Shown here one piece after another: positions 18,086 through 31,619 of a DNA stretch of 64,000 nucleotides. The position numbers were made by a program, and so were the translations under genes. The stretch lies in contig JAPPII010000022.1 in NCBI GenBank assembly GCA_028820845.1, positions 1 through 64,000 on the forward strand, written 5' to 3'. The DNA comes from Candidatus Poribacteria bacterium (GTDB taxonomy: Bacteria > Poribacteria > WGA-4E > WGA-3G). The notes beneath the pieces are model-generated. The model was given only the letters and a program-made list of their open reading frames with translations, was not told the origin of the DNA and made no database searches. The first letter of the stretch is position 1. Each line of letters opens with the position of its first letter.

Positions 18086-19147
18086 ATGGAAGCACTGGTT
18101 CTACACGGAATTGGAGATTTACGATTAGAACAAGTTCCCGTGCCGCATCTCGCTGACGGAGAGGTTCGTGTCCGAATCGGTTTCTGTGGGGTCTGCGGTT
18201 CGGATATTCCGAGGATTTTTGTCAAAGGCACCTATAGTTTTCCGACGATCTGTGGACATGAATTTGCGGGTATTGTTGACGCGTGTGGTCCCGACGTTGA
18301 AGATTTTAGTCCCGGCGATCCTGTTGCCGTCTTTCCACTGCTCTGGTGCGGCAAATGTTCGGCGTGTGAACAAGGAAAGTATGTCCAGTGTCACGACTAC
18401 GACTATCTCGGTTCGCGAAGTGATGGGGCTTTCGCTGAATATGTCGTCTCGCCCCAGCAAAATTTAATTCCTATTCCGCAAGGCGTAACGCTCGAAGAAG
18501 CATCTATGACAGAACCGGCTGCAGTCGCATTACACGCACTCCGTCGAGTTCAAACCTCGCTTGCTGGAAAGACAGTTGCGATCTTTGGTGCCGGACCTAT
18601 CGGGTTGATGACTGCGCAGTGGGCAAGAATAATGGGCGCAGTGGAAATATTTCTCTTTGATATTGTCGCAGAGAAACTCCGACTGGCGAAACAACTCGGT
18701 TTTGATAAGGTATTTAATACTTTAGCTGGGGAACCGGTTGGGGTCATAGAGACACATACTGACGGGAAGGGCGCGCATATCTGTATTGAGGCTGCGGGGG
18801 TTCCCGCTACCTATCAGAATGCGCTCGGCAGTGCCGGGCGTGGGGGCAGCGTTGTTTTCCTCGGTAATCCTGCTACGGATGTAACCCTACCTGCGACGCT
18901 TATATCGCAGGTAATGCGGCGTGAGGTGAGTATTTTCGGGACTTGGAATTCCGATTATAGTGCCGCAGGCAACGACGATGACTGGCGTACTGTACTTCAA
19001 GCAATGGCTTCTGGCATGCTAACGCTCGCGCCCTTGATAACCCATAAAGTACCTTTAACGGATAGTTCCGACATGTTACATAAAATGCGAGACCAGCGTG
19101 AATTTTACGCAAAAGTTTTGATCCATCCGTCTGGTGCGGATTTTTAA
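18086..19147 (+). CDS. Zinc alcohol dehydrogenase, GatD-like
   Basis: A 353-aa protein from the ATG at 18086; an upstream in-frame extension to 17981 runs through the leader repeat and is rejected. It has catalytic-zinc ligands in GVCGSD and GHEFAG, the four structural-zinc Cys in CGKCSACEQGKYVQC, SMTEPAAVALHA, and a Rossmann motif GAGPIGLM. Local wording such as CGSDIPRIFVKG and YDYLGSRSDGAFAEY is very close to galactitol-1-phosphate 5-dehydrogenase (GatD). An NAD-dependent sugar-alcohol oxidation is therefore likely, though the substrate is inferred. Confidence 0.85.
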   Translation: MEALVLHGIGDLRLEQVPVPHLADGEVRVRIGFCGVCGSDIPRIFVKGTYSFPTICGHEFAGIVDACGPDVEDFSPGDPVAVFPLLWCGKCSACEQGKYVQCHDYDYLGSRSDGAFAEYVVSPQQNLIPIPQGVTLEEASMTEPAAVALHALRRVQTSLAGKTVAIFGAGPIGLMTAQWARIMGAVEIFLFDIVAEKLRLAKQLGFDKVFNTLAGEPVGVIETHTDGKGAHICIEAAGVPATYQNALGSAGRGGSVVFLGNPATDVTLPATLISQVMRREVSIFGTWNSDYSAAGNDDDWRTVLQAMASGMLTLAPLITHKVPLTDSSDMLHKMRDQREFYAKVLIHPSGADF

Positions 19148-19235
19148 TAATTAAGTCTGAATCATGCCCATTACATTCCGCATAGGTTTTCAGTTAAGAC
19201 GAGAACCTGCTTTAGGTATGGAAAGGTTTCTGACT

Positions 19236-19335
19236 TTACCAAAAACCATCGTGAAATGAAATTCTGAGTGATTAGCGAAGAATTTGTCTTTGCTTTACAT
19301 TGTGGAACGATGCCCAGGAGCAAACAGTTAAAAGT
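19236..19335 (+). repeat. Leader repeat before the second dehydrogenase
   Basis: This is the second copy of the element at 17985-18085, with core at 19256-19300. It again ends at the ATG of a zinc dehydrogenase. A stop (TGA at 19265-19267) interrupts the frame that is open in the first copy. Confidence 0.7.
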
Positions 19336-20394
19336 ATGAAAGCGGCTATACTTGAAAGTCTTGACAATTTAAGCGTGAGAGAAGTACCCGAACCCGAAAT
19401 TGACGATGATGCCGCTTTAATGCGTGTGGAAGCCGTCAGTATCTGCGGCTCTGATGTCCGCATTCTCCATCACGGTAACCCCAGAGTTGAACCCCCTACT
19501 ATTATCGGACACGAAAATTCGGGGGTTGTCGTTAAAACAGGCAAAAACGTAACGCGCGTCAAGGAAGGGGACCGTGTGTCAATCGGTGCTGATGTGCCGT
19601 GTGGGCAGTGTCGTTGGTGCCGGGATGGACTCGGAAACAACTGCCATATCAACTACGCCATTGGTTACCAAATCCCAGGTGCTTTCGCGCAATATATGAA
19701 ACTCCCCCGCCTCGTTTTAGAGGAAGGCCCCGTTACACCCTTCGATGCCTCACTCAGTTTTGATGAGGCTGCGCTTGCTGAACCCCTCGCCTGTGCCATC
19801 AACGGGCTTGAACTCATCAATATGTCACTCGGAAAAACCGTGGTGATTATCGGTCTCGGACCCATCGGATGTATGATGATTGACCTCGCACGCGTTATGG
19901 GTGCCACGAAAGTCATCGGTGTACAACGGAGCAAGCTCCGTATGGAGATCGCAAAGTTTTACGAGGCGGATGCTTACATCGCTTCTGAAGAAGAAGATGT
20001 CATTGAGAGATGCAAAGAGGAAACAGACGGTGAGGGACCCGATATCGTCGTTACGACTTGTGGTTCTGTTGAAGCGCACGAACAAGCCGTTGAAATGGTC
20101 GCCCACCGCGGGTATGTCAATCTATTCGGGGGCCTACCAAAAACCATGCGACCGATGAGTGTGCTCTCAAATACTATTCACTATAAAGAGTGTTTCGTCA
20201 CAGGTTCGCACGGATGCGTACCGCGCCACCATGAGCTAGCAGTTCGACTCCTTGAAAAGGGGTTAGTGCGGGTGAAACCCCTTATCACACACCACTTTCC
20301 GCTCGTTGAGATTGATAAAGCGTTTGAGACCATGGAATCCAGAAAAGGAATGAAAATTATGATACACCCGCATCAGGAGGAGAAAGGGACATAA
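19336..20394 (+). CDS. Zinc-dependent dehydrogenase, MDR family
   Basis: A 352-aa protein from the ATG at 19336. It has zinc ligands in SICGSDVR and GHENSG, four structural Cys in CGQCRWCRDGLGNNC, LAEPLACAING, and the nucleotide fold GLGPIGCM. It is a sorbitol/threonine-dehydrogenase-like MDR enzyme, clearly paralogous to the upstream one but diverged. Its stop overlaps the apt start (TAATG), so the two are translationally coupled. Together with the epimerase it suggests a route that oxidises a polyol or sugar to a keto-sugar phosphate, which is inference. Confidence 0.82.
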   Translation: MKAAILESLDNLSVREVPEPEIDDDAALMRVEAVSICGSDVRILHHGNPRVEPPTIIGHENSGVVVKTGKNVTRVKEGDRVSIGADVPCGQCRWCRDGLGNNCHINYAIGYQIPGAFAQYMKLPRLVLEEGPVTPFDASLSFDEAALAEPLACAINGLELINMSLGKTVVIIGLGPIGCMMIDLARVMGATKVIGVQRSKLRMEIAKFYEADAYIASEEEDVIERCKEETDGEGPDIVVTTCGSVEAHEQAVEMVAHRGYVNLFGGLPKTMRPMSVLSNTIHYKECFVTGSHGCVPRHHELAVRLLEKGLVRVKPLITHHFPLVEIDKAFETMESRKGMKIMIHPHQEEKGT

Positions 20395-20909
20395 TGCACG
20401 ATTTTTCGCAGTTTATTCGAGATATACCCGATTTTCCAAAACCGGGTGTTTCATTTAAAGACATCACACCACTTTTAGGGAATCCAACTGTTTTTCATAA
20501 GGTCATTGATGAGTTCGCACTCCGTTATAAACTTGAAGCGATTGATGCTGTCGTTGGCATAGACGCACGCGGCTTTATTTTTGGCTCTGCCCTCGCTTAC
20601 CGGCTCGGCACTGCCTTTGTCCCCATTCGGAAAAGCGGTAAATTACCCTTTGATAAATATGAAGTCACTTATGATCTTGAATACGGTAGTGATACGATCG
20701 CAATTCATCGAGATGCCTTCCCGAAAGATAGTAAAGTGCTGATATGCGACGATCTCTTAGCGACGGGTGGGACGCTTATGGCATCAGTGAGTCTCATCGA
20801 AAAACTACAAGGACACATCGTCGGTATTGCTATTTTGGTTGAATTGACCGAACTCAACGGCAGAGAGAGAGTTCCAAAGCACGATGTTTTTTCGCTCGTT
20901 AAATACTAA
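20394..20909 (+). CDS. apt: Adenine phosphoribosyltransferase
   Basis: A 171-aa protein of standard Apt length that salvages adenine to AMP using PRPP in the cytoplasm. The N-terminus FIRDIPDFPKPGVSFKDITP is the Apt signature. VVGIDARGFIFGSALAY and FVPIRKSGKLP form the purine and PPi loops, and VLICDDLLATGGTL is the PRPP-binding motif. It starts on the last base of the preceding stop and precedes tRNA-Arg by eight bases. Confidence 0.95.
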   Translation: MHDFSQFIRDIPDFPKPGVSFKDITPLLGNPTVFHKVIDEFALRYKLEAIDAVVGIDARGFIFGSALAYRLGTAFVPIRKSGKLPFDKYEVTYDLEYGSDTIAIHRDAFPKDSKVLICDDLLATGGTLMASVSLIEKLQGHIVGIAILVELTELNGRERVPKHDVFSLVKY

Positions 20910-20917
20910 AAACGTAT

Positions 20918-20990
20918 GCGCCTGTAGCTCAGGGGACAGAGCAGGGGCTTCCTAAGCCTCGTGTCGGGGGTTCGATTCCTCCCAGGCGCG
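20918..20990 (+). tRNA. tRNA-Arg (CCT)
   Basis: The 73-nt cloverleaf folds completely. The acceptor stem is GCGCCTG/CAGGCGC, the D arm GCTC/GAGC, the anticodon stem GGGGC/GCCTC with loop TTCCTAA (anticodon CCT), and the T arm GGGGG/CCTCC with TTCGATT. The discriminator is G and CCA is not encoded. It reads AGG codons. Confidence 0.93.
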
Positions 20991-21136
20991 TTTGTAACGG
21001 CTGATGGCTATCAGCTGTCGTTCGTTTGTGACGGGAAAGCCCTTCACAACTGCTAAATGTTTTACTGACCGCTGATGGCTGACAACTGACGGCTATTGGA
21101 CTAACAACCATTCTAATGTCTTAGGAGTGAATTTGG
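20991..21136. repeat. Heptamer-type intergenic repeat
   Basis: Alternating ...CTGATGGCTATCAGCTGTC... and ...TGACCGCTGATGGCTGACAACTGACGGCT... segments belong to the TGACTGC-like repeat family seen throughout the window. No gene is visible. TTAGGAG at 21120-21126 is the secD ribosome site. Confidence 0.6.
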
Positions 21137-23083
21137 ATGTACAGATTTAGTGTCTGGAAAATTGTTTTAATCCTTGGGGTTTTGGTGTTTGCCGCGCTAT
21201 ACCTCATCCCGACTCCGGATGATTTCTACAATCCGTTGTACGGAAACCTACCGCTTTGGATGCAAGAAAAACTCCCACCCTTTGAAGTCAACGAAGATAA
21301 TGCCTTTAAAGTGAACCTCGCAGAAGTCGAGTACCCCGAAGGAATCAACTTCCAGGATACAACCTTTGAACTGCAGGATGTCTTCCGGGTCCATCTCAGA
21401 AAGCTTGGGCTTGAGGAGACGCTTGACTATGAATTTGATACCACGGAAGCGCGCGAATTTTATGTCCGGATGCTCTCGGAGAAGGCACTTCAAAATCCAG
21501 GGGCGACGCTCGACAATCTTCACCTATACGGAAGCCTACCGGGAACCCTCCGGCGCCTCATACCCGATAGCCGATTGAAGTTGGGGCTGGACCTTAAAGG
21601 CGGTGTACACCTTGTACTTGAGGTGGATTTGGAAACCTCCAAAGCGGCACTGCTCCGCGAACACGCACTCTCTATTCCCGAACGGCTTCGCGCCGAGGAT
21701 GTCTTATGTCGAGACGTTCAACAGGTCAGTGATCAGGATGTCCTGAATGTGTTTGTCGGTATTCCGTCTCGACTCCGAGCGGATGCTACACAAAAAGCTG
21801 CCTATATTGAAAAAGCCGAGGAGCTCTTGAACGAAATTGAATTTTTTGAGGACGCACAGATTCAAGCCGAAACAGAAACACAATCTACATACCAGTTGAA
21901 ACTCAGCACATCGGGCATAGAAAAATATACCGAACAGGCGATTGAACAGGTCCTCATTGTGCTCCGAAATCGCGTCGATGCCTTCGGCGTTTCGGAACCC
22001 TCTATCCGTCGGGAGGCAAATCACCCCCGAATCATTGTTGAACTCCCTGGTGCTAAAGATTCCTCGAAACCCCTTCAAATCGTAAAGACAATGGGGAGGC
22101 TCGAATTCAAACTCGTTAAAAAATCACCCACTGGCGGGAGTTTATGGAGTGGCACTGCCGATACACCCCCACCCGATAATATACCCGAAGACAGTGAAAT
22201 CCGATACCACTACGAGACAGGCAACTGGTACGTCTTAGAGAGTCCTGTACTTTTAAGCGGGGACCGCATTAACGACGCTGGACCCTCTACCGGGAGAACG
22301 AGTTTCGACATAGTTGTTTCGATGAGTTTTGATAGTATTGGGAGACGCAAGTTTGCGGAAGTCACAGGCGACCACATTGGTGAACACTTGGCGATTCTCC
22401 TTGACGGAAGGATCCAATCCGCACCTGTTATTCAAGACCAAATTGTCGGAAACGCCATTATTCAAGGGAACTTCACTTATGAGGAAGCCAGTTACCTTTC
22501 CAATATCCTGAAAGCCGGGGCGTTTCCTGTCGGTGTCCAGATCGCCGAGGAGCGGACGGTCGGGCCCACCCTTGGACAAGAATCCATTGATGATGGCATT
22601 AAAGCTGTGCTCATCGGTCTGGGCGGGGTCTTAATTTTCGTGATGATCTACTACCGTTTATCTGGGATCATCGCTATTACCGCCCTCGTTTTTAATATGC
22701 TCATCATTCTGGGTGCCTTGGCGGGATTTGGTGCAGCGTTGACGCTGCCGGGTATCGCCGGACTTGTCCTCACTATTGGTATGGCTGTTGACGCGAATGT
22801 ACTCATCTTTGAGCGAATTCGCGAAGAATTGCGAACCGGTAAAACCGTCTGGTCCGCTATCGAAAGCGGCTATCAACGTGCATTTATAACGATCTTAGAT
22901 GCCAACCTGACGACATTCTTTACCGCTCTTGTCCTTTATCACTTTGGCACAGGTCCAATTAAAGGATTTGCTTTAACACTCGGTATCGGTATCCTCGCAA
23001 GTATGTTTACAGCGATTGTTGTCACACGCGAAATATACGGTTGGACAGTCGGAAACAAGGACGTACAAAAACTTAGCATTTAA
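21137..23083 (+). CDS. secD: Protein translocase subunit SecD
   Basis: A 648-aa inner-membrane protein of the SecDF complex, which uses the proton gradient to help pull proteins from SecYEG into the periplasm. It has one N-terminal membrane helix and the P1 domain signature LGLDLKGGVHLVLEVD. Next come a long periplasmic region with NRVDAFGVSEPSIRREANHPRIIVELPG and the motif AFPVGVQIAEERTVGPTLGQESI. Five C-terminal helices follow, with GMAVDANVLIFERIREEL in the fourth. Length and motifs are standard. secF follows after 226 bp of repeats instead of directly. Confidence 0.96.
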   Translation: MYRFSVWKIVLILGVLVFAALYLIPTPDDFYNPLYGNLPLWMQEKLPPFEVNEDNAFKVNLAEVEYPEGINFQDTTFELQDVFRVHLRKLGLEETLDYEFDTTEAREFYVRMLSEKALQNPGATLDNLHLYGSLPGTLRRLIPDSRLKLGLDLKGGVHLVLEVDLETSKAALLREHALSIPERLRAEDVLCRDVQQVSDQDVLNVFVGIPSRLRADATQKAAYIEKAEELLNEIEFFEDAQIQAETETQSTYQLKLSTSGIEKYTEQAIEQVLIVLRNRVDAFGVSEPSIRREANHPRIIVELPGAKDSSKPLQIVKTMGRLEFKLVKKSPTGGSLWSGTADTPPPDNIPEDSEIRYHYETGNWYVLESPVLLSGDRINDAGPSTGRTSFDIVVSMSFDSIGRRKFAEVTGDHIGEHLAILLDGRIQSAPVIQDQIVGNAIIQGNFTYEEASYLSNILKAGAFPVGVQIAEERTVGPTLGQESIDDGIKAVLIGLGGVLIFVMIYYRLSGIIAITALVFNMLIILGALAGFGAALTLPGIAGLVLTIGMAVDANVLIFERIREELRTGKTVWSAIESGYQRAFITILDANLTTFFTALVLYHFGTGPIKGFALTLGIGILASMFTAIVVTREIYGWTVGNKDVQKLSI

Positions 23084-23309
23084 TGGCTGTCAGCCGTCGG
23101 CAGTCAGCAGTCAGTCGGGCATGTGGTATTTATGAACATTTTTGCTGCTATACGCGAGGGACTGACCGCTGAAAGGATTTTACGAGGCACTCGTAAAATC
23201 CGTCCTGACCGCTGATTGCTAATTATAGATTTTACTACAGTGGAGGAGTGGTTGTCGAAAGGATAGAGGTCAGTCTGCTGATAACTATTAACCGATAACT
23301 ATTGAAACT
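23084..23309. repeat. Repeat block with perfect hairpin between secD and secF
   Basis: TGACTGC-type repeats (23095-23120, 23159-23175, 23203-23220) flank a perfect 12-bp stem, GGATTTTACGAG/CTCGTAAAATCC, with loop GCA at 23175-23201. The spacer carries no gene. Confidence 0.75.
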
Positions 23310-24470
23310 TTGGAATTACTCAGAAATACAAACTTCGATTTTATTAGCAAATATCGCACTGGATTTATATTATCAGCCGTGGTCATCGTTATCGGCATAG
23401 TCTTTCTCGCAATCCATCAAGGACCGAACTTTGGGATTGACTTTCGTGGGGGCGTTAAAATCCAAGCCAAGTTCAACAGAGTGGTCTCGGAGGCGGAATT
23501 GCAATCCAAACTTGCTGAAATTGGTTATGAACGTGCCACGATACAGATAGATGAAAGCAGAAATGAAGCGTCTATCTCTATGGGACACCGTCCGGAATTT
23601 CAGCAGCAGTTGATTGATATTCCGATTATGGCGGATCCGGGCGATGCAACTGCCATGCGTCTGCAGGTGAGCAGTACTGTTGAAAAATTGCATCTATTAG
23701 AAGTTGGTGAAACTGTTGAGCTCATTGATGGCAATCTGCGACAACGCAATGAGATTACGGCACTCGACACTGTTGCCGACAGCAACGCCGTCCAGTTAAC
23801 CTTTGCGAACCCGTTCGGAATTGATTTGAGCGAGAACGCACATATCCAAATCCAAGCGAGTGTCGGCAGAATCCTCACAGATGCCTTGCTCGAAGGCGGA
23901 AACGATTGGCAAGCACTTGTTGGAGGTGTCAATGTCTCGGAAGTCCTTCCCAGTGTCGGGCGCGACCTTAAGTGGGCAGCCCTCTGGTCTGTACTCTGGT
24001 CGATCGTTATTTTGTTGGCTTACATCTCTTGGCGGTTTGAATTCCGTTTTGCTATCGGGGCAATTGCCGCCCTCGTCCACGATGTCCTGATTACCTTGGG
24101 GATTTTTGCTGTGCTATCAAAAGAGATTAATCTACCCACAGTGGCGGCGTTCCTGACGATTATCGGGTATTCACTCAATGACACGATTGTTGTGTTTGAC
24201 CGGATTCGGGAAAACTCGCAAACTTTACGCGGCACCGATTATACGACCGTGCTGAACCGAAGCATCAACCAGTCGCTCAGCCGGACGGTTATTACCTCTT
24301 TGACAACCCTGTTTGTTGTTCTGGTTATTTTTATCATCACCACTGCAGGGGAAGAGATTAACACGTTCGCCTTGGCACTTATCGTTGGTGTATTGGTCGG
24401 GACCTACTCCTCAATCTTCATCGCGAGTCCGATTGTGTATCTCTGGAATCGCGGACAGCAACCGGCTTAA
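23310..24470 (+). CDS. secF: Protein translocase subunit SecF
   Basis: A 386-aa partner of SecD. The N-terminal helix is followed by the signature PNFGIDFRGGVKIQ. The C-terminal helices carry the SecDF motif SLNDTIVVFDRIREN and the typical SLTTLFVVL/FALALIVGVLVGTYSSIFIASP segments. The most 5' start in frame is a TTG with no strong ribosome site, so translation may depend on an unusual leader or the start may be misread. The periplasmic loop (about residues 90-190) is longer than in many SecF proteins. Confidence 0.95.
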   Translation: MELLRNTNFDFISKYRTGFILSAVVIVIGIVFLAIHQGPNFGIDFRGGVKIQAKFNRVVSEAELQSKLAEIGYERATIQIDESRNEASISMGHRPEFQQQLIDIPIMADPGDATAMRLQVSSTVEKLHLLEVGETVELIDGNLRQRNEITALDTVADSNAVQLTFANPFGIDLSENAHIQIQASVGRILTDALLEGGNDWQALVGGVNVSEVLPSVGRDLKWAALWSVLWSIVILLAYISWRFEFRFAIGAIAALVHDVLITLGIFAVLSKEINLPTVAAFLTIIGYSLNDTIVVFDRIRENSQTLRGTDYTTVLNRSINQSLSRTVITSLTTLFVVLVIFIITTAGEEINTFALALIVGVLVGTYSSIFIASPIVYLWNRGQQPA

Positions 24471-24613
24471 TTGTTGTCGGTTATCAGTTATTGGTTATCG
24501 GTTAAAGAGAGATTCTGTAACAATGTGCCACTTTTGGCAGTACGCCAAGTTTGGGGTGATTGTTACAAAACGTCTCTTAACTGACGACTGACAACCAACA
24601 ACTAACCCCTAAT
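24471..24613. repeat. Palindromic MITE-like element built on the heptamer family
   Basis: The outer arms TTGTTGTCGGTTATC... and ...GACTGACAACCAACAAC are imperfect inverted repeats. Inside them AAGAGA...GTAACAAT (about 24504-24527) pairs with ATTGTTAC...TCTCTT (about 24558-24578), leaving a 30-base loop. No coding potential is seen. Confidence 0.6.
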
Positions 24614-24617
24614 TTAC

Positions 24618-25361
24618 ATGAAAATATTGATCTTAAGTCCTTATACAACCGGGCAAAAATATAAACCCGATAACCCCCTTCAGCGTGAAGATACCGTTTC
24701 ACCTGAACGCCTTAAGGCGAGAATAAAAGAGTTATGCGGTTACAATGCTGAGGGGTGGTACCACGAAGATAGAGACTACACCGCACCCGCTGGAGAGATG
24801 TTCACCGGTCCCATGCATACGCAATTGCGTGAGGGATTGAGACACATTCGGGAACATGAAGGTTATGGCGAAACGACGCTCGACCTTTATTTTCCGTGGT
24901 ATGCGTGTCGCGTTGACGGAAGAAAAACTCCTGTTGGTGAGAAGGATACAATCGTTCCTTTTGATATAGCACCGCTTCATGACACTAAGGTTTTGAAGTT
25001 AGGCGAGACGGGTGTTCCTGAAGCGATAGCGACTTTAATTGATCGCTACGACCTCGTTTTCTCGCTCTTGCGGCAAGAAGACATTATATCCCTACAACGT
25101 GTTTTTGAGATGCAACGGTCAACACCTCTGGTTTTCCTACTTGCCCCGAGCCACAGGCATGTCGTTAATGAGAGTTTGTCCAATGTCCACGTTATTGAGA
25201 CAGGACGAAATTTAGCAAAAGCCATCCGTGCCACGAATTGGTCAATAAAGGGAGTCGTCGTGAGACGTTTGTGTGAAGCTGCCTGTCGAGACGGTTTTCA
25301 CGTCTTTGCGCAAGTCAAACAAGACCCCCAACAGTTACTTGAGATCATCCAGAACCAATAA
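24618..25361 (+). CDS. DUF6884-like protein
   Basis: A 247-aa protein of unknown function. MKILILSPYTTGQ, TGPMHTQLREGLRH, TLDLYFPWYACRVDG and IVPFDIAPL appear in the order and spacing of the DUF6884/YaaA-like fold (LILSC...TGxMYxxLR...LxIYILSAxYGLI...IxPYD). I place it there on pattern only. The C-terminal half (VFSLLRQEDIISLQ, LVFLLAP, HVIETG) adds a second alpha/beta unit. A second, clearer DUF6884 protein is encoded at 26294. No catalytic residue can be assigned. Confidence 0.55.
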   Translation: MKILILSPYTTGQKYKPDNPLQREDTVSPERLKARIKELCGYNAEGWYHEDRDYTAPAGEMFTGPMHTQLREGLRHIREHEGYGETTLDLYFPWYACRVDGRKTPVGEKDTIVPFDIAPLHDTKVLKLGETGVPEAIATLIDRYDLVFSLLRQEDIISLQRVFEMQRSTPLVFLLAPSHRHVVNESLSNVHVIETGRNLAKAIRATNWSIKGVVVRRLCEAACRDGFHVFAQVKQDPQQLLEIIQNQ

Positions 25362-25397
25362 CTGTAGTAAAACCTAAAAACAAATAGACGCTTTCTC

Positions 25398-25430
25398 CCC
25401 TGGTAGGCGAGGTTTCCTAACCTCGCCGCC
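25398..25430. repeat. GGTAGGCGAGGTT hairpin repeat
   Basis: GGCGAGGTT/AACCTCGCC-type arms (25406-25427) form a near-perfect hairpin with the same design as the repeats at 55946 and 58690. It may act as a terminator for the upstream gene, although no T-run follows. Confidence 0.6.
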
Positions 25431-25612
25431 TTTGTCCTAAAATACGCTGTAGCATAAACTGTTAGGTTGTGCTACCCAAATATCTGTGTTTGTCCAGGTA
25501 TCTCCATAGTAAATTTATCCCTTAAACTAAACGCCCCTGATAAAGCTTAAATTTGACTTGACGCGTAGGGGTTGAATGTGGTATTTTTTAGTAGACCTTT
25601 TGGGAGGGTTTT

Positions 25613-25990
25613 TTGAAAAAAGAAAAGGGTTTCTGGCTTGATCTATGGGTAAACAGTAAAACAGGTATTGTGCTTTTCCTGGTTTCTGTCTTTTTTATCA
25701 TCTATAGCCTAATAGCTATAAGGTATGAGATAGGGCAAGGATGGCGCGGACACCCATCTGTTCAAGATGTCTTGATGGATATTTCGAGATTTATCCCTGT
25801 CGCGGGAGCATTTGTAGCTACATTGATAGGGGGTATTGACTTGATTGTATTCTTTTCGGGTTTATACATAGATTGGAGAAAAAAGCGTTTCCAGAAGGCG
25901 GTCGCATCCGCTGTTGAGGCAGCGAGATCGGAGGCTTACGCAGAAGGTTACGCAGCGGGCCAGCGAGACAAAGACTCTGGGGACAACTAA
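25613..25990 (+). CDS. Two-helix membrane protein with EGYAAG tail
   Basis: A 125-aa protein from a TTG start behind GGGAGGG. It has two membrane segments (about residues 19-37 and 63-85), then a basic stretch (DWRKKRFQ) and a helix AVEAARSEAYAEGYAAGQRDKD. The last motif recurs in the next small gene (AVEAARKHAYEEGYEAGKAG), so the two proteins probably share a partner or pair with each other. A weak promoter (TTGACG, 18 bp, TATTTT at 25558-25587) precedes it. The family is unknown. Confidence 0.6.
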   Translation: MKKEKGFWLDLWVNSKTGIVLFLVSVFFIIYSLIAIRYEIGQGWRGHPSVQDVLMDISRFIPVAGAFVATLIGGIDLIVFFSGLYIDWRKKRFQKAVASAVEAARSEAYAEGYAAGQRDKDSGDN

Positions 25991-26011
25991 ACAGGAGGCA
26001 ATAGCAGTATC

Positions 26012-26239
26012 ATGTTACTTTCAGATTGGTATGCCAGATGGAAAGAGAAGCATATTCAAGCAGCGGTTGAAGCAGCCAGAAAGCACGCCTATGAAGAAGG
26101 CTATGAGGCTGGTAAGGCGGGAGTCTCTGAAAATGTGCAAGGCGTAAAGAAAAATAATGCCGTAACACGCGAATCAAATGTTGTCTTGCATGAACATAAA
26201 GCAGCGGTTGTAACGCCTAAGAAAAAGGAAACGAAATAG
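26012..26239 (+). CDS. Small soluble coil protein sharing the EGYxAG motif
   Basis: A 75-aa protein starting about 15 bases after AGGAGG. Residues 1-35 (WYARWKEKHIQAAVEAARKHAYEEGYEAGKAG) copy the cytoplasmic tail pattern of the preceding membrane protein. The rest is charged and probably disordered, ending TPKKKETK. It is spaced 21 bases from the upstream gene and is probably in the same operon. Confidence 0.55.
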   Translation: MLLSDWYARWKEKHIQAAVEAARKHAYEEGYEAGKAGVSENVQGVKKNNAVTRESNVVLHEHKAAVVTPKKKETK

Positions 26240-26293
26240 TTTAATCCTGTGATCTAAGCAAACGTAGGTTTAACTTTAGCACATACGGAATCA

Positions 26294-26718
26294 ATGTCTA
26301 ATGCACCTGTGGCATTCCTCATGGTTGATTCTCTACCCTATGCTGAACTTACGTTGGTAAACGTAATGTCGAGACAAAGATCTTCAAACCCACGATTGTT
26401 GATTCTTTCGTGTTCTCGGAAGAAACATCCTGCCCAGGGTTTACTGCCCGCCTTAGAACGTTATGATGGACCAGCGTATCGGGTGATAAATAAGTTCCTA
26501 CGAGTTCACCCATCTGAGAAACAATCACTTAATGTGTATATTTTATCAGCAAGATTTGGATTGATTTCGGATGATGAACGAATTCCTAACTGTGATCATA
26601 GCGTCCTCTCCAGTGGTTGGTGAGTCAGTTGACAGGTTTAGCTGTGGGCACTTTTCACACAAATGAAGCCAGAAGAGTCTTGCAACAGCTTGGAATAGAT
26701 ATCTATCGAAAAGAATAA
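26294..26718 (+). pseudogene. DUF6884 protein with 3' frameshift
   Basis: The first frame (26294-26623) gives LLILSCSRKKHPAQGLLPAL, YDGPAYRV and LNVYILSARFGLISDDERIPN, the defining DUF6884 pattern. It then stops at 26623 just where the family's conserved Tyr-Asp and C-terminal helix should follow. Another frame, open from 26620 to 26718, encodes VSQLTGLAVGTFHTNEARRV and an LQQLGIDIY end that looks like the missing tail. One frameshift or a programmed shift near 26600-26622 would explain this. An internal ATG at 26366 could be the true start. Confidence 0.6.
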
Positions 26719-26728
26719 GGGTTTAGTG

Positions 26729-28270
26729 ATGAGTACAGAATCTTCTATTGGTACAGTTTCGCCTGATAACGGAACACAAGCGGATAGGTCGGAAGTAAAT
26801 GAGCGATTAACCGAGAATGATGTACAAGAAGACCTCCGTCGCCAGCCTCAGTTAATGATGAAAACACTGTTGATAGCTGAGAATCTGCGGGATAATTATT
26901 TCCGTAATACAGCGCGTTTTATACGTCATTTACGTCGACGTCGAGCTATAGACGCGACTAATAAAGGAATGCGCGATAGTTCCATTCTTCAGGCTTACTC
27001 AGTCAAGGATGCGTCTTGGGGAGATTTTAAAGATGAATTAGTTAGTTTTATTGACAGAGGAATCGGTCAGACACAATTATCCCAAGTGCCGCTCCTATTG
27101 CGGGTCGGATCTTATGAGGTACATGTAGGTAACAGGAACATGACCGAGCGGGAAAATTTTGGCTATTACCCGGTAATCTTCGGAGACTTTGAAGGCGGTA
27201 GTAAGGAGCGAAGAGATTTTCCCGATATCGTTCGCATTACTGCTGAATTACTGAGTGGACTTTCAGTACTGAATCGCAATCAGAGTCTAAGAGTCCTGCT
27301 GTTTCACGGACCATTGGTTTATTTGATGGACGCTTACGCAGGTCATACACCCTTCACCGAAGCAGACATTGACCTATTTCTAAAACACTATTCAGATGAT
27401 AAAGAACAAGCAGATCAGTTGAAAGAAGATTTTCTTAAAGAAGCCCGGCTTGATATTTATCCAGCTATGGCTGAGGGAAGGTCCGATGAGTGGGCAGATC
27501 GTCGGTTTTTTGAACCGTTGTCATGGATTGCATTTCTCTATAGAAAATTGATTGCTGTGGCACTAAATAGAGAACCTCGTCCTATCATTGCAGGAGTTGT
27601 AGAACGTGGGAGATCGCGCGAGTTTTGCGAGGAAGTGTTACTTAAACGCGTTTTTCGTAGTCTAAGTGAAAGAGGAAACCAGAACTATTTCAATGACTTG
27701 TTTAGTCTTTCTGACCTTACTTCTCCTAAAAATTTGATGGACAGGTTAGGTTATACGGACAATCTTCTCTTAGGCTTGCTTCTTGATACTGGCGAATATT
27801 CGGAACATTGGAAGATGAACAAGTCCAGTGGTTTGGGAGCAGGTGCAATTAGGCTTCCAGGAGAGTCTGGAAGTTCAACGGTAGACTTTTCCTGCTTGAG
27901 AGAAGACAACCAATTTGGTTTTCCGACTGTAAAGGGAACTTATATTCGAGTTAGTGAGAATACTGAACCCATTAGGATTGAGATTTTTTCCGAACTTGGA
28001 GAAAATCAAGTCAGAGAAGCTGCGCGGCGTGTATATTTGTACTCGCGCCTCTTACCTAATTATGGCTTTCCTGTGGGTTTGGATATCGCTGATAAGTTTG
28101 CCCACGTGCCAAGTTGGATGACAAGAGCGGGCGACAAGATGATTCTCCATACATTGGGGATGAGTTTACAGAAAGGTGCAATTAGCGATGCAGATATGCG
28201 AAGAGTGTTAGTGCAAGCTATCTATATGACACCCCGAGATTGGTTTCTTCGACCAACTGTAGAAGGATAG
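26729..28270 (+). CDS. NurA-domain nuclease
   Basis: The start is the ATG at 26729, with a GTG three bases before it as an alternative. The product, about 513 aa, is assigned to the NurA 5'-to-3' nuclease family. Support comes from the acidic strand ELVSFIDRGIGQT (catalytic-type Asp near residue 109), the following LLRVGSYEVHVG, the C-terminal RIEIFSELGE and YGFPVGLDIADKFAHV segment, and the HerA helicase encoded seven bases downstream. NurA-HerA pairs resect DNA ends in archaea and occur in bacterial accessory regions, some with defence roles. This protein is longer than typical NurA, with an N-terminal charged extension of about 60 residues. Confidence 0.72.
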   Translation: MSTESSIGTVSPDNGTQADRSEVNERLTENDVQEDLRRQPQLMMKTLLIAENLRDNYFRNTARFIRHLRRRRAIDATNKGMRDSSILQAYSVKDASWGDFKDELVSFIDRGIGQTQLSQVPLLLRVGSYEVHVGNRNMTERENFGYYPVIFGDFEGGSKERRDFPDIVRITAELLSGLSVLNRNQSLRVLLFHGPLVYLMDAYAGHTPFTEADIDLFLKHYSDDKEQADQLKEDFLKEARLDIYPAMAEGRSDEWADRRFFEPLSWIAFLYRKLIAVALNREPRPIIAGVVERGRSREFCEEVLLKRVFRSLSERGNQNYFNDLFSLSDLTSPKNLMDRLGYTDNLLLGLLLDTGEYSEHWKMNKSSGLGAGAIRLPGESGSSTVDFSCLREDNQFGFPTVKGTYIRVSENTEPIRIEIFSELGENQVREAARRVYLYSRLLPNYGFPVGLDIADKFAHVPSWMTRAGDKMILHTLGMSLQKGAISDADMRRVLVQAIYMTPRDWFLRPTVEG

Positions 28271-28277
28271 ATAAATA

Positions 28278-30017
28278 ATGGAAACAGAGAAGGTCATTGG
28301 GACCCTTGTTGGTGAAAGTACGAGCAAAGAATTTCGTCTTGCTGTAACACCTGAAGCGACCCGGGAGCAGGATATTATCGCAGTAGATGCTACCTTAAAT
28401 GAGACGGAAAACGGTGGAGAGTTGAAAAAAATAAGGATTTGGGCAAAAGTCCAAAGAATAGAACGTATCAATCCTCTGTTTCCGGCTGAAGCAGGGCACG
28501 AACTGGCAGAAACACAGACTGATCCCATGGATACCGTACTTTCTCTAAGTCGTGAGATGGTATCAGCCGTATGCCAAGTGATAGGGTATGAACAATTGAC
28601 GACAGGTGGATGGTCCGGTAAACTTGAAAGTTTACGATATCCCCCTAAACCTGCTACTCGTGCTTATGGTCCGGATCCAGCGGATCTAAAACGAGTGTTA
28701 GTCGGAAAATTAGAAGATGAATCGCAAAGCGCGATAAATATTGCGACCCTCTCTAATCGAGATAATGTTGACGTAGAAGTAGATGGCAATGCTATAGTTA
28801 CTCGTCATTTAGCTATACTGGCAATGACTGGAGCGGGTAAAAGTTGGACAGCCCGAAGGATTATTGAACAATTAGCAGACAAAAATTATCCGATGGTTAT
28901 TTTCGATCCACATGGGGATTATACAAGGCTGGGGGAGATTGAATCGCTTAACAATAAAGTTAATCGTTATCACGCCACCTTAGCGATTTTCGAGGAAGAT
29001 GCAGATACAGTGGCTCAAATTATCGGCAATCTGGCGGACAATCCTCTAACACCTGCAATGAATGCTTTATTTGGTGATTTATTTAATGCGTCCAGAAGGT
29101 TTAACGAAGCTGAAGGGAGCGAAAGAATAAACTGGCTAGCTAATAGACTTAATGATAATTGCATTCGTCAAAATGGTATTAAACCCGATCTTTGGTTAAT
29201 TGCCAATATAGCAGATGCCGCTTTTCAATCAATAAAAGATGCCGGGGATGGGAATACCTACGATTTTGAGTATCTGAAACATATCTGTTGGGAGAATCTA
29301 AAAGAAAAGGAGCGACGTGACACTTTACAGGGAATATACGGAAGGGCTCGGGCGGCAGCATCCGAACTACGTAAGATGGAAAGAGTTAATCAAAGAATCA
29401 CTGGTGAGTCACAACCCATGCCTCAAAATCGCGACGAGCTCGTACAGTATGGTAAGATTTCAGTAATATCTTTGGCGGGTTACACTGGAGACTTTCAGGC
29501 TACAATATATAGTATTATTGCAGAGGAATTGTTTGAAGCCAAGGTTAACGAAAGGCTGCAATTGCCGTTTTTACTGTTACTTGAAGAAGCTCACAATTTC
29601 ATTCCTAGTCGTGGTACTGCTTCAGCCCAAAAACAATCCATTGCTATTACCAAACAGATTGCCCGGGAGGGAAGGAAATTTCATGTTGGTTTGGTTGTGA
29701 TTAGTCAGCGGCCTTCCCGCTTAGATGAGACGACTCTTTCTCAATGCAACTCTTACATTATCATGAGAATGGTAAATCCAGCCGATCAGACCTTTGTGAA
29801 GAGAGTTGTTGAATCATTAGGTGAAGAAGAAGCGAGTCTACTTCCTAACCTTGAGGTAGGCGAAGCACTTTTATCAGGGCAAATGGTAAATTTTCCCATC
29901 TTAGTAAAAATGAAGGAACCTGAATTTAGAGGTGGACTTGGGAATACTAATGCATTCCTTCAGCTTGAAGAAGTTCATGATCGGGAAGTTCGCGATCCAG
30001 TTAGAAGTAGTTTTTGA
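28278..30017 (+). CDS. herA: HerA-type hexameric DNA translocase
   Basis: A 579-aa protein with the HerA order. An N-terminal HAS-barrel-like domain is followed by Walker A in AMTGAGKSWTARR (residues 184-189) and VIFDPHGDYTRLGE. Walker B is in LLLLEEAHNFIPSRG (Glu436-Glu437). VVISQRPSRLDETTLSQCNS and an arginine-containing IMRMVNPADQTFVKR follow. It would assemble as a ring, pump double-stranded DNA and work with NurA. The seven-base gap and shared strand indicate one operon. The two upstream small proteins with EGYxAG tails may be accessory subunits, which is speculation. Confidence 0.9.
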   Translation: METEKVIGTLVGESTSKEFRLAVTPEATREQDIIAVDATLNETENGGELKKIRIWAKVQRIERINPLFPAEAGHELAETQTDPMDTVLSLSREMVSAVCQVIGYEQLTTGGWSGKLESLRYPPKPATRAYGPDPADLKRVLVGKLEDESQSAINIATLSNRDNVDVEVDGNAIVTRHLAILAMTGAGKSWTARRIIEQLADKNYPMVIFDPHGDYTRLGEIESLNNKVNRYHATLAIFEEDADTVAQIIGNLADNPLTPAMNALFGDLFNASRRFNEAEGSERINWLANRLNDNCIRQNGIKPDLWLIANIADAAFQSIKDAGDGNTYDFEYLKHICWENLKEKERRDTLQGIYGRARAAASELRKMERVNQRITGESQPMPQNRDELVQYGKISVISLAGYTGDFQATIYSIIAEELFEAKVNERLQLPFLLLLEEAHNFIPSRGTASAQKQSIAITKQIAREGRKFHVGLVVISQRPSRLDETTLSQCNSYIIMRMVNPADQTFVKRVVESLGEEEASLLPNLEVGEALLSGQMVNFPILVKMKEPEFRGGLGNTNAFLQLEEVHDREVRDPVRSSF

Positions 30018-30176
30018 CTGGGAAAATAGTTAAGAGACAGTTATTAGGAAGTAGCGATATGGTGGTTGATCACTCGCTTATAGCAGGAAATCCTTTCGTA
30101 CTGCCACAGAACCCCTGCAGGTAGCCAATGGGCAATATTAAAGGAACAGTTCAAGACACACTGAGGACAAAAGAAG

Positions 30177-31619
30177 ATGGATCTTCCAAAGCTCGTTATT
30201 GGCGATAGTTCACGACGCATTATCGGTGAATCCGCACCGATGCGGACGGTTTTGCGTCAAGTCGAACAGGTCGCACCGACGAAAGCGACTGTCCTCATCA
30301 CAGGCGAAACGGGTGTCGGCAAAGATGTCATCGCCGAGGCTATACACGAAAGTAGTCCACGTAAAGATCGACCCTTCAAAGCCGTCAACTGCGGTGCATT
30401 TTACCAAGACCTCCTTCAAAGCGAACTCTTTGGACATGAAAGAGGCGCGTTTACAGGCGCGTCCAGCCAACGCCGCGGGGTGTTTGAGCAAGCAGACGGT
30501 GGGACGCTTTTTCTTGATGAAGTCGGCGAAATGTCCCCTGAAGTACAGGTAAAATTCCTGCGGGTCTTAGAGTCGCAGGAATTCACCCGACTCGGTGGTG
30601 AAAAAAATATAAAAGTCGATGTCCGAATTATCGCCGCAACGAATATCAACCTTGCAAAGTCCGTTAAAGATCGAAAATTTAGGCAAGATCTCTATTATCG
30701 GTTGAACCTCTTTCGCATCCACATCCCACCGCTGCGCGACCGACGCGAGGATATTCCGCTCTTTGTTGATGCGTTTATTTCTGAATTAAGTGAAGACCAC
30801 GGAAAAACGGTTACCGGCATAGCACCGGAAGCGCTCAGTTATCTCCAAAATGCAAATTGGCACGGTAACGTCCGGCAACTCAGAAATGCCATTGAGTCTG
30901 CTATCATTGTGGCGACAACTGATGAGCTCCAACTTAAAGATTTTCCAATAGATTCAGAATCCGAACAGATTACGGCACTGCCTGTTCAAGTGTCAGGCAC
31001 GCAACTCGCACCTACGCAGGTGGTCGGCACCGAAATCTCTGGAGAAGTCGGGTTTCCTAATCAATCTGGGACATCTTTACAAGTCGTGGACCCCGCCACC
31101 AGTGCCATTACCACAGAAAATATAGCGGTCTACAAGACAATTATCGGGCTTATCTTCTCCGCAATCCGATCGCTGGATCCAACCGCTGCCGCAAGGGATG
31201 ATATGCCACCCTTAATTCCTGATGAGGATACCAGTTGGATGCAGATTAACGAGGCTGATGACGCAGCCGACATACTGAGAAAAACACTGGAGGTGCTTTC
31301 GACAATTACTAAGGTGCTTGAGAATCGCAATCAGGATGGAATCTTACCTATCGTTAATCCTATGGAACCACAAGAAGGCACAAAAAGGACAGACAGCAAA
31401 CCCGTGGCTGTATATGATGAGGAAGTTATTGGCAAGGTAGGCATGACAATGGCAGAAATTGAACGCGCAGCTATCCAGAAAACGCTCGCGGAAACGGATG
31501 GAAATAAGACAGAAGCGGCAAAAATTCTTGACATCGGAGTCCGAACCCTACACCGCAAATTGGACGCTTATAGACAAGAAGTCAATAACAATTCGGGTGA
31601 TAATTTTAATCAGGAATAA
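30177..31619 (+). CDS. Sigma-54-dependent transcriptional activator
   Basis: A 480-aa bacterial enhancer-binding protein. It has Walker A GETGVGKD (residues 43-50), the sigma-54 contact loop GAFTGA (90-95), Walker [11 protein letters not shown], sensor residues in RIIAATN, arginine fingers in [10 protein letters not shown], and [12 protein letters not shown] long variable linker (about 265-430) leads to a Fis-type helix-turn-helix ([40 protein letters not shown]). It lacks an N-terminal receiver or sensor domain, so control probably comes from expression or a partner. A 159-bp spacer separates it from herA. Its target is unknown. Confidence 0.93.

Follow-up and report, generated by a model that had tools for sequence, protein, structure and literature searches.

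A compact DpdB-free operon of DUF6884, NurA, HerA and TGT-family genes as a candidate 7-deazaguanine DNA-marking system, with a decayed copy in Candidatus Poribacteria

HerA and NurA are known mainly for end resection, and DpdB is part of the known Dpd synthesis. In dpd islands the dpdC gene carries the Pfam label DUF6884, and a survey of these islands published in 2025 required dpdA and dpdB (PMC11888242). A paper from 2026 places HerA and a TGT in a seven-component BREX-related system, together with PglZ and without DpdC (PMC12839542). The locus described here brings HerA, NurA, a DUF6884 protein and a TGT-family enzyme together in an operon of four genes.

The starting point was a stretch of 64,000 nucleotides from a Candidatus Poribacteria contig (JAPPII010000022.1, positions 1 to 64,000), referred to below as the window. 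The first-pass annotation had listed six ORFs, all of which are present at the coordinates given, and had read them as one functional set; the features as we now assign them are given in Table 1. We consider it probable that the operon is a compact, DpdB-free system for marking DNA with 7-deazaguanine, with HerA–NurA as its effector, and that the window holds a recently decayed, inserted copy of it.

Table 1. Features of the module locus in the window
Feature	Position	Strand	Basis
Flank gene, motif-less distant DUF6884 relative, outside the module	24618..25361	+	Genus core distribution, HHalign
Bystander, small membrane protein with EGYxAG tail, dispersed Poribacteria family	25613..25990	+	Distribution in relatives
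Bystander, small soluble protein that also has the EGYxAG tail; partner of the preceding one	26012..26239	+	Pairs with relatives of 25613-25990 elsewhere
Module DUF6884 remnant, N-terminal part (homology 26381-26599)	26294..26623	+	tblastn, G011 orthologue, 67% identity over residues 11-83
Module DUF6884 remnant, C-terminal part, in another frame beyond the internal deletion	26605..26715	+	69% identity, G011 residues 220-255
Module NurA-like nuclease, FIDGG and FHGPL motifs conserved in the subfamily	26726..28270	+	Pfam NurA; predicted model vs 2ygk
NurA codon 111, AGA (Arg); Gly in all other aligned copies; adjoins motif-I Asp110	27056..27058	+	Alignment
Module HerA-type hexameric translocase	28278..30017	+	Pfam DUF87, PADLOC HerA
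Position of the fourth gene (TGT/DpdA-like), absent here	30018..30176	+	In G011 and L135 the TGT precedes the sigma-54 regulator
Core sigma-54 transcriptional regulator that flanks the insertion site	30177..31619	+	Pfam Sigma54_activat

The NurA and HerA genes are genuine and adjacent, with the broken DUF6884 gene upstream, as had been claimed. The NurA protein matches the Pfam family above its cut-off (E = 2.9e-7). The best PDB match of its predicted model (mean pLDDT 69) is Sulfolobus NurA (2ygk; Foldseek E = 2.7e-8); by sequence, the subfamily gave no match in the PDB. The translocase matches Pfam DUF87/HerA (E = 3e-27) and the PADLOC HerA profile (1e-61), and the HerA/FtsK P-loop core is present. 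Identity to homologues is 55–78% for NurA, in several phyla, and 54–73% for HerA across phyla. Further, distant NurA relatives occur in related genomes (L007–L013). In the subfamily alignment the motif-I residue Asp110 is invariant and the second motif reads FHGPL throughout; the G111R change is found in the window alone. That the whole subfamily is degenerate or dead is not borne out by this alignment, in which every copy has the motif-I Asp.

The NurA alignment was searched against 84,980 species genomes and gave 23 loci. These span at least five phyla (Poribacteria, Cyanobacteria, Chloroflexi, Acidobacteria and Bacteroidota) as well as metagenome-assembled genomes labelled Actinobacteria and Proteobacteria. 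Among the carriers are the cyanobacterial genera Nodosilinea, Coleofasciculus, Acaryochloris and Nostoc and the Bacteroidota genus Adhaeribacter; the module is present in the named organisms Nodosilinea sp. LEGE 07088 and Coleofasciculus sp. LEGE 07092, intact in both, and in Adhaeribacter aerolatus. In G011 and G046 a full-length DUF6884 gene is followed by NurA–HerA and then by a TGT-family gene of about 350–390 codons. This order recurs across the mapped loci, and the genes outside the module are unrelated. The TGT gene is present in 16 of the 18 copies that have enough downstream sequence, the exceptions being the window and a Thermomicrobiales locus (L129). For loci that run off the end of a contig, the TGT lies no more than 1.5 kb from the start of another contig in two genomes and was not found in three. 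The linkage of DUF6884 to NurA–HerA proposed in the first-pass annotation is thus a real association across phyla according to neighbourhood conservation. Its statement that no description of this combination is known also stands for the literature that we searched, which covered few subscription papers. A role in DNA processing or defence for DUF6884–NurA–HerA is plausible. Elsewhere, Nostoc sp. NMS7 carries a deletion from inside NurA to inside the TGT gene, with HerA gone (L134:8207-10492).

A second search used the TGT alone, and so was independent of the NurA bias. It covered 1,182 genomes of Cyanobacteria, Chloroflexi and Acidobacteria, one genome labelled Actinobacteria/Proteobacteria being counted with the Chloroflexi. 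Eight new loci were found: six complete modules, one truncated remnant and one fragment where a contig begins. In three of the six complete modules, all from the sample of Cyanobacteria, the HerA–NurA pair is a different one and its order is reversed (DUF6884–HerA2–NurA2–TGT). This arrangement is seen in G043, G284, G166 and G294, where the NurA2 assignment is based on one weak Pfam match (E = 0.0034) and on gene position. The modification genes thus occur alongside exchangeable translocase–nuclease pairs. One Poribacteria locus (L135:7481-18750), in the site bounded by secF and the sigma-54 regulator, has both HerA–NurA pairs; DUF6884 separates the two pairs and the TGT comes at the end. At an acidobacterial locus (L206:3973-9855) a TGT fragment lies on one strand; nearby on the opposite strand, a gene bearing a NurA-like motif stands ahead of a HerA-type gene, these being of another kind again.

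In G011 and G046 the fourth gene product matches Pfam TGT (2.4e-15 and 4e-9) and PADLOC DpdA (5e-6 and 3e-7). Asp78, Asp233, Cys278, Cys280, Cys283 and His305 are invariant in 16 TGT homologues; we take the two aspartates to be catalytic and the three cysteines and the histidine to be the zinc ligands. Profile matches to the PDB are best for archaeosine TGT (1iq8) and include a DNA-guanine transglycosylase (7ui4). All 16 members match the NCBIfam DpdA model only at E ≤ 0.01 and its curated cut-off of 200 bits is not reached, the first member scoring 24 bits; the best NCBIfam match is the archaeal tRNA enzyme TgtA (8.6e-17), ahead of DpdA. Given a score so far short of the DpdA cut-off and a better one against TgtA, we place the module TGT on a separate branch from DpdA proper, and DNA as its substrate is not proven. 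None of the 25 carrier genomes has a DpdB match above the curated cut-off.

The resemblance to archaeal enzymes, in both the NCBIfam and the PDB matches, raises the alternative that the TGT acts on tRNA, the operon then serving RNA modification or a stress response linked to translation, with NurA–HerA present by chance as its effector. We regard this as unlikely. Both NurA and HerA belong to families that act on DNA, the module TGT has only about 345 residues vs 582 for archaeal TgtA (1iq8), and DUF6884 is tied to the DNA-binding protein YaaA and to DpdC (PMC11701544, PMC11888242). A close relative of the TGT is, moreover, found on a contig of a viral collection that has phage-like structural ORFs (L179:5830-7053; 54% identical to that of the module), as expected of an enzyme that protects DNA. 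At its N-terminus about 24 HerA residues remain (match to the HerA profile, E = 1e-9), and the phage gene seems, from this fused start, to have been taken from a bacterial operon through a deletion. It was the one TGT relative found on viral contigs; no NurA relative was found there, and a search for carriage on plasmids gave no match.

The DUF6884 proteins of the module match the Pfam family above its cut-off. The family motifs are C-x3-K and LSA-x2-G (PMC11701544), and in the aligned module copies the first occurs in 15 of 15 and the second in 14 of 15. The N-terminal remnant in the window still has both and matches Pfam DUF6884 at E = 2.5e-4. Matches to the PADLOC DpdC profile are weak (3e-4), as is the best PDB match of the predicted model (mean pLDDT 85), which is to AF0587 (2q07; E = 2.9e-4). 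Two loci (L121 and L126) have a DUF6884 of another subtype.

A link to preQ0 comes from the neighbouring genes. In a set of 70 neighbouring proteins no Pfam family is commoner than Vut_1, which occurs six times, and QueC is found once; Vut_1/COG1738 is the preQ0 transporter YhhQ (PMC5372724). The YhhQ/Vut_1 gene lies just upstream of the module in six loci and queC does so in one. A strong QueC match is present in 17 of 25 host genomes, and 24 of the 25 have a predicted route to preQ0 through QueC or Vut_1. Vut_1 is found in seven of the eight hosts lacking QueC vs five of the 17 that have it (Fisher p = 0.011). Since preQ0 pathways are common in bacteria, we give more weight to the adjacency of Vut_1 and queC than to the genome-wide tally. 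No preQ1 riboswitch was found near the eight modules examined. DUF366 was considered as a linked gene and rejected: two members matched in a bulk scan, but the two proteins checked are not DUF366.

By analogy with Dpd, the following scheme can be proposed. PreQ0, from synthesis in the cell or from import by YhhQ, would be exchanged by the TGT for guanine in DNA. The DpdC-like DUF6884 protein may carry the modification a step further, in the way that DpdC makes dADG from dPreQ0, or may read the modified base. The HerA hexamer would then pump unmarked DNA into NurA, to be destroyed, and the module as a whole would act like a restriction–modification system built on 7-deazaguanine. We put at slightly better than even the chance that this is a widespread form of DpdB-free 7-deazaguanine modification–restriction, in which TGT and DUF6884 mark the DNA, HerA–NurA effectors are exchangeable and the marking enzyme has been taken by at least one phage. 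Several points speak against the DNA-marking reading: two lineages have orphan NurA–HerA pairs, the TGT is distant from DpdA, no DpdB match reaches the curated cut-off, and a defence-island setting is not clear, there being few strong PADLOC matches among the 70 neighbouring proteins.

This paucity of defence matches would also suit a system for DNA repair with no part in defence, in which DUF6884 recognizes damaged bases, the TGT exchanges them and HerA–NurA resects. NurA–HerA of Deinococcus does resect DNA ends (PMC9960219), and the DUF6884 protein YfjM is reported to interact with DNA lesions (PMC11701544). We nevertheless find such a role distinctly unlikely, as the sporadic distribution within the genus, the swap of the HerA–NurA pair, the capture of the TGT by a phage and the genes for preQ0 import fit marking better.

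The remaining genes of the supposed set have no part in the module. The first, which had been called DUF6884-like, is indeed a relative but only a distant one (HHalign E = 4e-26 with the DUF6884 protein of L121); it has no Pfam match by itself, and its core copies lack both family motifs. Genes of this type were matched in 34 of 60 relatives, every one a congener, and the order apt–secD–secF, this gene and the sigma-54 regulator is kept on most of the 34 contigs, the last two genes usually adjoining. The regulator lies directly 3' of this gene in congeners without the module, whereas in the window, G011 and L135 the NurA–HerA genes lie exactly between the two. Because the gene is core in congeners and its core copies are motif-less, it marks the insertion site and was ruled out as a module gene. 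Tandem extra DUF6884-like copies adjoin the gene at loci of congeners without the NurA–HerA module (L076, L077, L083, L092, L099 and L103), and several of these paralogues have both motifs.

The two small proteins that follow share the tail AVEAARxxAYxEGYxAG, as had been noted (cross-match E = 3.9e-4), and lie with the other genes in a compact arrangement on one strand, both in the window and in the sister contig L115. It had been suggested, from the tail and the arrangement in the window, that they form with DUF6884 and NurA–HerA a DNA-processing or defence system anchored at the membrane. Relatives of the membrane protein, however, occur in 31 of 60 genomes, often in several copies per genome and mostly about 45–50% identical, vs two of 60 for NurA of the window type at high identity. 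Their neighbours vary, with dehydrogenases, proteases and aminotransferases among them, and the homologues lie mostly away from HerA–NurA. Three EGYxAG two-gene pairs (L108, L109 and L110) are without NurA–HerA, and the pair is in no other module locus mapped. A membrane-anchored system is on this evidence barely credible; membership of the EGYxAG proteins is ruled out by their distribution, and they are unrelated bystanders. The family has multiplied and become scattered through this genus of Poribacteria, with two of its genes paired at some sites (window 25613-26239, L108–L113).

The window copy of the module is damaged. When compared with the G011 orthologue by tblastn, its DUF6884 gene lacks the region for residues 84–219, about 136 codons, and changes frame. 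The gene had been described as frameshifted; it is broken by an internal deletion together with the change of frame. The same break is present in L115, a public sister assembly that is 99.5% identical to the window over that stretch and 99.5–99.8% over 18330-27787. Sequencing error was ruled out, as the 136-codon deletion is common to both assemblies. No remnant of a TGT was found in the window by tblastn, and a module-family TGT is absent from the window genome and from that of the sister. NurA position 111, Arg in the window, is Gly in L115 as in the other copies. Apart from this, both NurA and HerA are intact, and their dN/dS with respect to G011 and L135 is low (about 0.1–0.2), like that of neighbouring genes. 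Either, then, the decay happened recently or the pair still serves a separate function. The window has modestly more private changes at invariant sites than G011 or L135 has. Judged from sequence, then, the window holds a decayed copy of the module in which NurA–HerA persists, with a suspect active site at least in the window genome; this lineage has lost the putative marking half and retained the pair.

A second orphan pair is found in the Thermomicrobiales (L129:9001-12367), with NurA–HerA of the module subfamily and neither DUF6884 nor TGT. The orphans in the two lineages count against the restriction reading, although a freed effector might be tolerable if inactive or regulated. Tolerance of a NurA–HerA pair without the marking enzyme would instead be in keeping with a type-IV-like restriction, which destroys invading 7-deazaguanine DNA and in which TGT and DUF6884 would detect the foreign base or take it out. 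Phages with such DNA exist (PMC6884629). The preQ0 transporter and queC genes near the operon suggest synthesis of the base, not its removal, and we think this explanation very unlikely.

If the DNA-marking reading is true, the marking of DNA by base replacement also occurs in compact islands of four genes, found in Cyanobacteria, Chloroflexi, Acidobacteria, Bacteroidota and Poribacteria; a search demanding dpdA and dpdB together (PMC11888242) would miss these islands. HerA–NurA would then gain a role in telling self from non-self. We found no literature that joins NurA with 7-deazaguanine beyond passing co-mention; subscription papers were mostly outside the search, so an earlier description is possible.

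The closest described systems are the Dpd islands (dpdA–K, for example in Salmonella Montevideo). Like these, the module has a TGT-family enzyme and a DUF6884/DpdC-like protein with preQ0 supply genes near, partners of the nuclease and translocase type, and a sporadic distribution in genomic islands. It differs in having no DpdB at the curated level, a TGT below the DpdA cut-off, HerA–NurA as effector in place of DpdD–K, and four genes rather than up to eleven (PMC11888242). The BREX-related capture system, BRC (HerA/FtsK, TGT, GNAT and PglZ), likewise combines a HerA translocase with a TGT proposed as a marker of self-DNA (PMC12839542). BRC, however, has PglZ, BrxC-like, BrxA-like and STAND proteins, often GNAT, and no detected DpdC or DpdB, whereas the partners in the module are NurA and DUF6884 only; none of PglZ, BrxC-like, BrxA-like and STAND is among the commonest Pfam families of the 70 module neighbours. 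With the HerA–NurA end-resection complex of archaea and Deinococcus the module shares the RNase H-like NurA fold (2ygk), the HerA hexamer family and the adjacency of the genes; its NurA, in contrast, belongs to a divergent subfamily and lies in an operon with base-modification genes. The anti-phage systems HerA–SIR2 and HerA–DUF4297 also assemble HerA with an effector enzyme, but in the module the effector is NurA and the system has modification genes of its own. Taken with these comparisons, the operon appears to be a form of DNA defence by self-marking that is as yet undescribed, a variant of the Dpd theme.
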